A model generated the notes under the pieces. That model ran no database searches. It was not told where the DNA came from and saw only the letters and a program-made list of their open reading frames with translations. Positions 18,190 through 21,848 of a DNA stretch of 64,000 nucleotides are shown in pieces. This DNA is from Pseudalkalibacillus sp. SCS-8 (GTDB taxonomy: Bacteria; Bacillota; Bacilli; Bacillales; Fictibacillaceae): the NCBI RefSeq assembly GCF_040126055.1, contig NZ_CP143541.1, forward strand, positions 930,001 through 994,000, in the 5' to 3' direction. The first letter of the stretch is position 1. Each line of letters starts with the position of its first letter. The position numbers and the translations under genes are program-made.

Positions 18190-18813
18190 TTAGAAGAGGA
18201 GGGTGAAGGCTTGGTAGCCGAAGTAGCAGCCGAACCCGATGAGAAATAATCCAGCGGTGATGGAGATCCCTTGAAGCATTCGAGGAGTCAGAAATTTTCT
18301 GAAGCCACTGGCCATGCTCGCCATGATGAAATCCCAGATCAAAATACCGATGAAGATTCCGGAGCTGTAGATGATGAGCTGGTGCTGACTAAACGAGTCG
18401 GCGGTCTTAGCGAGCACGGATCCGTAAATGCCAAGCCAGAAAAGGATGTTAAGCGGGTTGGATAAAGCCATGAAAAAACCGGTGCGAAAGGATTTCATCG
18501 GACTTTCTCTTACAACATCCGTATTCGTTGGATCATGATTCGATCGGATGATGCTTTCGACTCCAGTGTATATGAGAACGAAACAACCAAACGACCAGAG
18601 GAAGGTTTTGATGATCGGGACGTCCAGAAACTGGGCAACCCCGAAATAAATCAAAAGCATGAACAGCATATCCGCGACCATAGCACCCAATCCGACCACC
18701 CATGCGTGAAGGAACCCGAATTTGATGCCCTTGTCCACTTGGGCTGCATTAATCGGTCCGATAGGAGCGGATAATGATAATCCCAACAATATGTAACTGA
18801 AGAATGGAACCAA
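18190..18813 (-). CDS. LysE family exporter
   Basis: 207 residues with about six membrane helices. GLSLSAPIGPINAAQ at the N-terminus and FFMALSNPLNILFWLGIYG are the LysE/RhtB family signatures. Members export basic or other amino acids or small solutes; the substrate is unknown. The start is TTG with GGAGGTGATTG directly upstream. A palindromic repeat copy lies immediately after the stop. Confidence 0.88.
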   Translation of the reverse strand: MVPFFSYILLGLSLSAPIGPINAAQVDKGIKFGFLHAWVVGLGAMVADMLFMLLIYFGVAQFLDVPIIKTFLWSFGCFVLIYTGVESIIRSNHDPTNTDVVRESPMKSFRTGFFMALSNPLNILFWLGIYGSVLAKTADSFSQHQLIIYSSGIFIGILIWDFIMASMASGFRKFLTPRMLQGISITAGLFLIGFGCYFGYQAFTLLF

Positions 18814-18902
18814 ACAATCACCTCCATAACCAGTCTATTCATGCTAGTCCTACTGTAATACTTGTCCGGCATTATAAAACCATTAACAAGTGACTTTTGA
18901 TG

Positions 18903-19052
18903 TTATGAAGATCTTTTTAGCGTAGAAATGAAGTGGTAAAGATCTTCATCGGTCTTATGAAGATCTTTTCAGTGTAGAAATGAAGTGGTAAAGATCTTCA
19001 TCACGCTCATGAAGGACATTTCCACATCCATTCACACATGTTTTGTCCTTCA
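18903..19052. repeat. Tandem hairpin repeats (two 48-bp copies and a variant third)
   Basis: Two copies (18903-18950 and 18955-19002) differ at two positions and each begins ATGAAGATCTTT-like and ends AAAGATCTTCAT, making a 12-bp stem with a loop of about 20 nt. A third unit (about 19008-19049) keeps the layout with other arms: ATGAAGGACA pairs with TGTCCTTCAT. It lies between the start of the LysE gene and the end of the peroxiredoxin gene. No T run follows. Confidence 0.8.
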
Positions 19053-19071
19053 TCGCTCCCAAAATCACGAG

Positions 19072-19674
19072 CTAGATCCGTCCAATCATTCTCGTGTTCA
19101 TTTGGATTCCTGGCTGTCCGGGCAGCCAATTTGCGGGCACGCCTTCGCCTGTTTTCCGCCCATACTGGATCGCCTGAAGCAGTCTCAAGATCTCATACGC
19201 ATTACGCCCAACCTCTAACGGGTTTACGAGCTTTGAAACGATTGTCCCTTCCGGATCGATGATAATCGTAGCCCTGAGTGCAGCTCCAGCCTTTTCGTTC
19301 AACACCCGGTAGCTCCTGCAGATCTCCTGTGTCCGGTCACTTACAAGCGGGTACTGGACTTTCGCTGCCATCGGTGATACTTCGGTAAAAACTTTATGTG
19401 CATAAGCGCTGTCGGTGCTTATGGCAAGGACTTCAGCATCCAACGCTTGCAATTTAGGATAAATGGCAGCGACCGCCGCCAGTTCAGTCGGTCAAACAAA
19501 CGTGAAATCAGACCCATAAAAAAAGAGGATCACCCATTTGCCTAAATAATCATCCAATGACACGTCGATGATTTTCTTATCTTGATTAGAGTAAGCTTCA
19601 GCAGAAAATGAAGGCGCAGTATCCTTGGTTTGAGCGCAAAACGGCTGTTCACATTCCTCATGATTCTGATTCAC
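19072..19674 (-). CDS. Probable selenocysteine peroxiredoxin (PrxU type), TGA read as Sec
   Basis: Peroxiredoxin of the AhpC/TSA family that would reduce hydroperoxides in the cytosol. The frame is uninterrupted except for TGA at 19494-19492, exactly where the peroxidatic cysteine belongs: GSDFTFV-U-PTELAAVAA. Read through, the protein is 200 residues, with Sec at position 61. Flanking motifs are intact: DYLGKWVILFFYG, VLAISTDSAYAHKVF, TIIIDPEGTIV and VGRNAYEILRLLQA. The usual resolving cysteine (VCPANW) is valine (GVPANW). A SECIS-like hairpin follows the TGA. The GTG at 19674 with AGAGGTGAT upstream is preferred to the ATG at 19701. Alternatives are a pseudogene or sequencing error, but no other lesion is present. 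Confidence 0.78.
19465..19480 (-). promoter_or_regulatory. Candidate bacterial SECIS element
   Basis: On the minus strand, 11 nt after the TGA, GGCGGC-GGTC-GCTGCC forms a 6-bp stem (one G.U pair; an outer U-A can add a seventh) with a GGUC tetraloop. The loop begins about 18 nt from the TGA. A G within the first two loop bases and a 16-37 nt distance are the accepted bacterial SECIS rules, and GGUC is the core of the E. coli fdhF loop bound by SelB. Confidence 0.65.
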
Positions 19675-19858
19675 ATCATCACCTCTACATATGTCTTCCA
19701 TTCATATGTATTTAGGGTTCTCATAAGTTATACACTGGAAATTATGATGGAGATACGACCTATGTACTATCAGGAATTATATCTTTGGTTGAATTGGTTA
19801 AGGGCAAGATGTTTGCCATAATGTAAGACAACGAATCCTACATAATGGTAGGAGACGT

Positions 19859-19909
19859 CCCGGAATTGGTTAGTGGTTTTCCATTCTACCAGTTCCGGTT
19901 TTATTTTTG
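19859..19909 (+). terminator. Terminator-like hairpin with no obvious gene
   Basis: CCGGAA and TTCCGG close a stem that continues through TGGT/ACCA and TGG/CCA, followed by TTTTATTTTT. No convincing plus-strand gene lies just upstream, so it may end an unrecognised short transcript or insulate the divergent promoters. Confidence 0.5.
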
Positions 19910-19994
19910 TCTAAATTCAGTAGTTCTTTATTAATTACTGGTTTCAAGGTAAAATAAAAGTTAACAGAAAATTAAGATGAACAAGGGGGATGAG

Positions 19995-21848
19995 ATGAAA
20001 CAAGATGGACAACTTCAGAGAAAAGAAAAACTTTCGAACCTTTACCTTATGATGATTTCCATCATAGGATGGGGTTCGGTCGGCGCTGCAGCTTTTTTCC
20101 TCAAGGTACCAGATAACATCGTTGTATGGCTCTTATTTACCCTCTTCCTATTCATAACTGAATTTTTCCCGATGGCTGTCTGGAAGGGACATAGTTCACT
20201 GAGTTTTCCAGTCGTTTTTACGACTTATCTATTATTTGGTTTGCCATGGATCGTGGTAACCTATGCGATCGTCGTCTTTTTCGTCAATTTCATTCAACGA
20301 CGACCATTACGCATTCTGTTCTTCAACCCTGCTTTGCTGGTATTAAGCTTCATTGCAGCTGAAGCATTAACACGGGTGTTGCATGAGACGGTTTTTCAAG
20401 CCTACCCATTCAACCCAGGTTCGTTCATCACCATGCTCTTGATCACCTCCCTGTTCTATATCGTCAATAATCTATTGGTGGATATCGTCCTGTTGATTCG
20501 TCCACAGCCATATACGTTGAAAATATGGAAAAAGAAATTCTACTCGGAATCCATCAGTGCCATCATTTCCTTCATCTATATCGGAATCATGTTCTATCTC
20601 GGAAACCAGAACAGAGGGGTCATTGATGTCTTTGCGTATTTCTTCTTTTTCTCACCACTTGTAGGATTAGCCTTGCTCAGTTCCATTATTGCCAGACTCC
20701 AAACCGAGCGGAACCGATTGAATGCGTTGTTTGACATTTCCACTGAGCTGAACAGGTGGCTGCCTTCCAAGCAATGGATCGAATCAATCCGGTCAAGCTT
20801 ACGTAACTTCGTCGACGCAGATGCAAGTATTTTGTGGGTCAACGAAAATGGACATTGGAAGGTTCGCTTTCAGAATGGACAGGTTTCAAAAAGTGAGGAT
20901 CCCCGTGAGGTACGTGGGTTCGATCAGGTGAAGGAATTGGTCGTCTTCCATGATCGGAAGAAGGATCCTGGCTATGCACCGTCTTACTTTGACAAAGCGT
21001 TGAAATCCTTCATCTATGCCCCGATCATCCTTGAGGATCAATGCCTCGGAATGTTTGCAGTCGGAAAAAGCAGGAGTAACAGCTTCCGTCCGGAAGAGAT
21101 TCAATCTGTTGCGACGCTCGCCAATCAGCTTGCAGTCGTCATCAAGACAAGGACGCTCATTTCCGAACAGGAAAAACGGACAGTGCTTGAGGAGCGGAAC
21201 CGGATTGCAAGGGAAATCCATGATGGCGTCGCCCAGTCGTTGGCAGGAGCAGTCATGAAGCTTGAAACCGCCGACCGGAAGTTTTACCAGAAGCCGCCTG
21301 AAGCTCATCGTCTCGTAACCGACAGTCTAAGTAAACTGCGGATGAGCTTGAAGGAAATCCGCGAATCCATCTATGCGTTGCGACCATATGAAACTGAACG
21401 CGTCGGATTGAAGCAGGCTGTTCTCAAGCGGATCGATGTCATCAAGAAGGAATCTGGACTCGACATCCAATTCGAGGAACGCGGTGAGCCGGTAATCTTA
21501 AGCACCATGGTTGAGAAAGTGATGTTCGACATTTTCCAGGAAAGTGTCCAGAATATCATCAAGCATGCTCAAGCATCTAAGATCGATGTCTTGCTAAGCT
21601 ATCAAAAAGAACATGTCTTATTGAAGGTATCTGATGATGGGATCGGTTTTTCGTTGCTTGATGCGATGATCAAAGCGAAAAACCAGCCGCATTTTGGTAT
21701 CCTGAGCATGAATGAACAGGCGGAAAAAATCGAAGCTGTACTTCAAATCGATAGTAAAGAGAACAAGGGCACAGAGATTAATTTGACTGTACCGAAGCTT
21801 GGTATGGAAGGAGGAATGGGTCATGATCAACGTCATGTTAGTGGATGA
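19995..21848 (+). CDS. Sensor histidine kinase, NarL-partner type, with GAF domain
   Basis: 617 residues. The N-terminal third has about seven or eight membrane segments. A GAF-like domain follows (about 250-395, with [20 protein letters not shown]), then a HisKA_3 dimerisation helix with phospho-acceptor His409 in [16 protein letters not shown] and an HATPase_c domain ([34 protein letters not shown]). It autophosphorylates and passes the phosphate to the regulator encoded next. The ATG at 19995 has AAGGGGGATGAG directly upstream; the ATG 18 nt earlier has no ribosome site. The stimulus is unknown. Confidence 0.92.

Follow-up and report, generated by a model that had tools for sequence, protein, structure and literature searches.

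Peroxiredoxins containing selenocysteine (Sec) are well known as a kind, 91 of them having been counted in 78 organisms (PMC5029168). Among these, PrxU of Eubacterium acidaminophilum (Sohling 2001, as cited in PMC9312934 and PMC13188914) carries Sec at the peroxidatic position, within a TxxU motif according to the two reviews, while the thiol peroxidase Prx-SUH (NF045827) is given as CxxU in a 2026 review. In regard to the Bacillales, the table of a 2006 survey counts 3 selenoproteins (PMC1794560), so that, going by that table, the use of Sec in this order is not new.

The gene described here lies within a window of 64,000 nucleotides, the whole stretch analysed, which represents positions 930001-994000 of the 3.62-Mb single contig of Pseudalkalibacillus sp. 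SCS-8 (genome completeness 99.89). A conserved in-frame TGA stands at its catalytic-cysteine codon, and we consider it very probable that this TGA is decoded as Sec with a SECIS-like hairpin; the product would be a peroxiredoxin, with peroxides as its predicted substrates. With PrxU the predicted protein shares the AhpC-TSA domain, Sec at the peroxidatic position at the level of the codon, and the TxxU motif. Prx-SUH is likewise a Sec peroxiredoxin-like protein, but the window protein reaches only 23 bits against its cut-off of 298, and the motif here is TxxU. In comparison with bacterial AhpC and typical 2-Cys Prx1 proteins (e.g. 1n8j, 1we0), TGA takes the place of the peroxidatic cysteine codon, the resolving cysteine is absent, and the proline of PxxxTxxC is often replaced. 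The features are as follows:

19072..19674, minus strand: peroxiredoxin gene, a single 200-codon frame ended by TAG, in which codon 61 is TGA; GTG start at 19674-19672
19680..19685, minus strand: Shine-Dalgarno-like GAGGTG, 5 nt upstream of the GTG start, read from the sequence
19513..19515, minus strand: G54 codon, seven residues N-terminal of U61; in Cys relatives this position is the PxxxTxxC proline
19492..19494, minus strand: in-frame TGA, predicted to encode selenocysteine (U61) in place of the peroxidatic cysteine, within TFVUPTE; TGA in 85 of 110 homologous loci
19465..19480, minus strand: predicted bSECIS hairpin GGCGGC-GGUC-GCUGCC, with 17 nt between TGA and the apical GGUC and the apical GU at 19473-19472
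19138..19140, minus strand: V179 codon, at the resolving-cysteine position of 2-Cys relatives (VCPANW), with no cysteine here

The interrupted gene and its protein

Two open reading frames of the minus strand (19701-19492 and 19452-19072) share one frame, and the TGA at 19494-19492, flanked by DFTFV and PTEL, is the sole stop that separates them. The first-pass annotation of this locus, which had placed a lone TGA at the catalytic cysteine of TFVCPTE, was correct in both coordinates and description. Reading through TGA from the GTG at 19674 yields 200 amino acids. The 13 codons following it (19491-19453) are open and resemble the family, as had also been claimed, and the Pfam domain AhpC-TSA extends across the junction (8.3e-36, residues 18-146). 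A GAGGTG-like stretch precedes the start in many relatives, although not in all. Scanning of 18800-20000 found no sigma-70-like promoter site and four terminator-like sites, two of which are the SECIS hairpin itself, while a search of 19300-19720 against Rfam gave nothing above the gathering score. Directly downstream of the gene (18903-19006), the window holds a tandem pair of 52-nt copies that are 90% alike and bear the inverted repeats ATGAAGATCTTT/AAAGATCTTCAT, a possible terminator or small-RNA element.

Matches to the five flanking genes of the window were present in its own locus and in the nearest relatives (L024, L026, L053), with the exception of one 36% response-regulator match in L083. 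In the flanks of 72 loci no family of open reading frames recurs in more than 12, and no partner reductase gene conserved beside the TGA gene was found there. In Mesobacillus-type loci (L104:3811-6189 and kin), the TGA gene is immediately followed downstream by members of a family that occurs in 9 loci, presumably cytochrome bd oxidase genes by their appearance.

The AhpC-TSA domain, above its cut-off, and a confidently predicted AhpC-like fold place the protein among peroxiredoxins of the AhpC/Prx1 fold. At the level of the gene it is also a selenoprotein, with UGA at a redox-active cysteine position, homology on both sides of it, and tRNA-Sec, SelA, SelB and SelD encoded in the genome. Membership in a named family is another matter. 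With the PrxU model NF040737, which we take to cover the E. acidaminophilum protein, the window protein scores 168.1 bits and eight other TGA members 163-195, all below the curated cut-off of 270. The earlier designation as PrxU-type thus describes a resemblance but not membership, as all nine TGA members remain below that threshold. Likewise, the AhpC model (TIGR03137, curated cut-off 272) gives 167.6 bits for the window protein and 141-187 for the nine TGA members, whereas a Cys relative used as a positive control (L124) passes with 280.8. Since its score of about 168 bits falls short of both cut-offs (272 and 270), the gene is filed neither as AhpC nor as PrxU. A search of five genomes that carry distant TGA members gave no PrxU above cut-off.

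The protein lacks the C-terminal resolving cysteine by which typical 2-Cys peroxiredoxins are recognized, V179 being found in its place. This position (VCPxxW) is occupied by V, I, A or T in 75 of the 76 distinct TGA proteins, the remaining one being unread by the pattern, in contrast to C in 24 of the 25 Cys proteins (1 unread). The proline of PxxxTxxC is present in all 25 Cys proteins but only in 20 of the 76 TGA proteins, and absent in the other 56. In the window protein it is replaced by Gly, which might alter activity, while Thr and the active-site Arg are kept. Absence of the resolving cysteine and relaxation of the proline would also suit a selenoprotein acting mainly as a sensor, a chaperone or a selenium store rather than as a peroxidase. 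We regard such a role as unlikely, however, because the catalytic residues are retained, Thr58 in all but one (Ser) of the 76 distinct TGA proteins and Arg134 in 33 of 33 aligned proteins, and the predicted fold is AhpC-like.

The hairpin and the selenocysteine machinery

According to a figure legend in PMC13188914, the bSECIS model requires a G in the apical loop, a spacing of 16-37 nt and an MFE of at most -7.5. The window hairpin, with its GGUC loop, 7-bp stem and MFE of -11.9 kcal/mol, resembles this model in the small apical loop starting with G, in the 17-nt spacing and in its MFE, but differs from it in that the stem of the clade is very strongly conserved in sequence and encodes AAVAA. 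Taken alone, the window hairpin is unexceptional, as 82 of 2000 synonymous recodings fold equally well or better, and the case for a SECIS element therefore rests on the family. The 85 TGA loci yield 74 distinct sequences, in which standard pairs occupy 441 of the 444 cells formed by the six inner pairs, and 71 stems are complete, the three incomplete ones (two Pelotomaculum sequences and the Clostridium) failing at one pair each. By comparison, 500 synonymous-codon shuffles reached at most 365 paired cells and 18 full stems.

Two of the pairs are particularly informative with respect to the RNA, since in each of them both partners fall on silent third positions, in Ala or Val codons, and their changes are not explained by the protein. 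Pair 17/26 appears as A-T in 47 of the 74 sequences, G-C in 18 and G-T in 9, and pair 20/23 as G-C in 65, A-T in 7 and C-G in 2, with at least 10 and at least 4 changes on the tree, respectively. All 74 TGA sequences have the apical GU, and none of the 25 distinct Cys sequences has either this GU or a full stem. At the place of AAVAA, the Cys relatives have TALSD, GDLAD and similar peptides, which suggests that the RNA hairpin could have shaped this stretch of the protein. Covariation at silent sites makes the SECIS hairpin directly testable.

The claim that this genome uses Sec could be followed through its gene content, and all four components proposed for the search were found above cut-off. 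The tRNA-Sec at 1731276-1731368 scores 59.5 bits (Rfam cut-off 47) and is called SeC with anticodon tca by ARAGORN; SelB is encoded at 1732706-1734580, SelD at 1738180-1739106 and SelA at 1740060-1741148, the whole cluster being located about 0.78 Mb from the peroxiredoxin gene. As 5 of the 14 control genomes also pass the Rfam cut-off, which alone is a weak test, the weight is carried by the ARAGORN anticodon together with the SelA match and the other sel genes; the SelA model, for its part, also matches in 2 of the 14 controls. SelD contains its own in-frame TGA, in SKGG-U-GCK, and is likely a Sec-type SelD (L021:12076-13107, TGA followed by GCK). Between selB and selD, the cluster (L021:8595-12040) also holds a GT4 glycosyltransferase (104 bits with the SenB selenosugar-synthase model, cut-off 300) and a PhnD/PhnE/PhnC-like ABC transporter (186 bits with a putative selenate binder model, cut-off 250). 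Of the 8 sel regions of relatives examined, 5 show the order selB-GT4-PhnDEC-selD-selA, and the GT4-PhnDEC genes represent a candidate selenium uptake system.

Sec use proved not to be rare in the group, contrary to what had been supposed at first, as SelA was found in 32 of the 34 genomes of the family and in 75 of the 150 genomes of the order (SelA threshold E <=1e-60, TGA orthologue threshold E <=1e-45). The TGA gene is present in 19 of these 150 genomes, with one TGA each; all 19 are SelA-positive, and none of the 75 SelA-less genomes has it (hypergeometric p 5e-7, uncorrected for kinship). At E <=1e-45 the gene is absent from 56 of the 75 SelA-positive genomes, and it is therefore optional. 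In one genome, a single contig carries both selA and the TGA peroxiredoxin, about 5 kb apart (G050:C54:12780-19341).

This co-occurrence also bears on the reading in which UGA is decoded mostly as cysteine, by a near-cognate tRNA or a misloaded tRNA-Sec, so that the protein would be a 1-Cys peroxiredoxin in vivo. Cysteine seems to be tolerated, as Alteribacter keqinensis encodes a variant (P0008; 55% identity) in which Cys at the site is combined with other features of the clade: AAMAA follows it, and the resolving cysteine is again absent. Nevertheless, the conserved SECIS-like hairpin points to SelB, and the SelA co-occurrence of 19 out of 19 to Sec, which makes predominant cysteine decoding very unlikely. 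The Alteribacter variant is likely a Sec-to-Cys reversion, judging from its protein sequence, and the apical GU is impossible there because of the Met codon in its place.

The two SelA-less genomes of the family (G022 and G029) yielded neither SelB nor tRNA-Sec above cut-off. G022 retains a degraded, truncated fragment of the Sec peroxiredoxin gene without the active site (L137:1107-1484), and in G029 no close match to this gene was found. G029 does keep a TGA in a different, PrxQ/Bcp-like peroxiredoxin (G029:C19, L146) despite its lack of SelA, SelB and tRNA-Sec above cut-off, so either TGA can outlive the machinery, following a recent loss of the sel genes, or the assembly of G029 is incomplete. 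Related to this, the genome of strain SCS-8 encodes a second, PrxQ/Bcp-like peroxiredoxin (L133:741-1235; G000:C1:489740-490234, plus strand) with an in-frame TGA at the catalytic position, DFTPG-U-IKEITSW. Its score is below every NCBIfam cut-off among the families listed, and one-TGA matches to it recur in many genomes of the family.

Conservation of the codon and its annotation

Across all 110 homologous loci read, with some genomes present in both the family and the genome_contigs sets, the codon at the Sec site is TGA in 85, TGT in 20 and TGC in 5. In the genome_contigs set, TGA was found in 72 of 80 loci (the best 80 of 171 relatives). An orthologue is present in 13 of the 34 family genomes, our own included, at 55-100% identity and with exactly one TGA each. 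The other 21 genomes gave as their best match a less closely related paralogue, of 41-45% identity, that has no TGA. TGA members belong mainly to the Bacillaceae, but also to the Fictibacillaceae and Guptibacillaceae, Ammoniphilus, Pelotomaculum, a Clostridium and one Desulfobacterales bin. On a tree of 87 distinct proteins built with the Sec column masked, one Sec/Cys change suffices, although this tree was obtained by a quick method from part of the loci, with repeats removed, and its deep branches are long and uncertain.

Most of the database entries found for the gene cover no more than its second half. Among the best 120 of 4417 homologues, 98 are 111-136 amino acids long and start past TGA, at residues 65-90; 17 have Trp in the motif TFV-x-PTE and two more (P0010, P0011) in the variant MVWPTEL, 19 in total; and 3 have Cys at the site, including the Alteribacter variant. 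The 98 truncated entries and the 19 with Trp at the catalytic site expose a systematic annotation error. The truncated entries, starting at or after residue 65, would agree with the annotation of many genomes, where the gene appears as two separate proteins, one of 69 aa from the N-terminal part and one of 126-136 aa from the C-terminal part. That two such products are made is, however, extremely unlikely: neither half contains the active site, the Pfam domain and the predicted fold cross the junction, the hairpin is under constraint at the RNA level, and the truncated calls start at several different places between residues 65 and 90.

The frame is indeed interrupted by TGA, as would be expected of a pseudogene with a recent nonsense mutation in a cysteine gene, or of a base-call error, but we rejected this with near certainty, because 85 of 110 homologous loci share this TGA and keep the frame open on either side of it, the 12 other family genomes with orthologues (55-82% identity) also have it, and the hairpin shows compensatory silent changes. 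A chance origin of the stop, judged unlikely from the single sequence, is excluded by this conservation. Equally negligible is a reading of TGA as tryptophan (code 4), as many metagenome gene calls with Trp in the motif seem to assume, since the genome has tRNA-Sec and sel genes, TGA ends 13 of the 51 long non-overlapping open reading frames of the window, Trp at a peroxidatic site would be inert, and the hairpin would be left without a role.

Proposed mechanism and meaning

According to the model favoured here, in which TGA encodes Sec, the organism's own SelB and tRNA-Sec would decode the codon, likely aided by the hairpin 17 nt downstream. The selenol of U61 is predicted to reduce peroxide, and reduction of the resulting selenenic acid would fall to a thiol external to the fold, either a bacillithiol-like low-molecular-weight thiol or a thioredoxin-type protein; alternatively, loose N-terminal cysteines could serve as the reductant in some members. 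Such a source is proposed because the resolving cysteine is absent. Under selenium shortage, ribosomes would terminate at TGA, and the resulting 60-residue product would lack the active site. We infer in this way Sec insertion in vivo, peroxidase activity and regeneration.

A search of the literature for selenoproteins and selenocysteine in Bacillaceae brought up a single paper, which deals with tick flora, and none of the best 10 of 3,440 matches joined Rossellomorea, Neobacillus or Mesobacillus with selenoproteins or selenocysteine. The exact TGA peroxiredoxin clade was not met in this literature, which lay outside subscription journals and supplements, and we do not claim that it is unpublished.

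In a broader view, to which we give even chances, these proteins could form a distinct one-selenol class of peroxiredoxins across Bacillaceae and their kin, in which selenium allowed the loss of the resolving cysteine and the relaxed proline, an outside thiol such as bacillithiol took over reduction, and the hairpin shaped AAVAA, a class nearly invisible in databases. What the locus adds to the Bacillaceae is likely a widespread antioxidant selenoprotein. Sec here accompanies the loss of two hallmark features of peroxiredoxins, the resolving cysteine and the PxxxTxxC proline, and the TGA clade lends itself to a natural experiment on the benefit that an enzyme draws from selenium.
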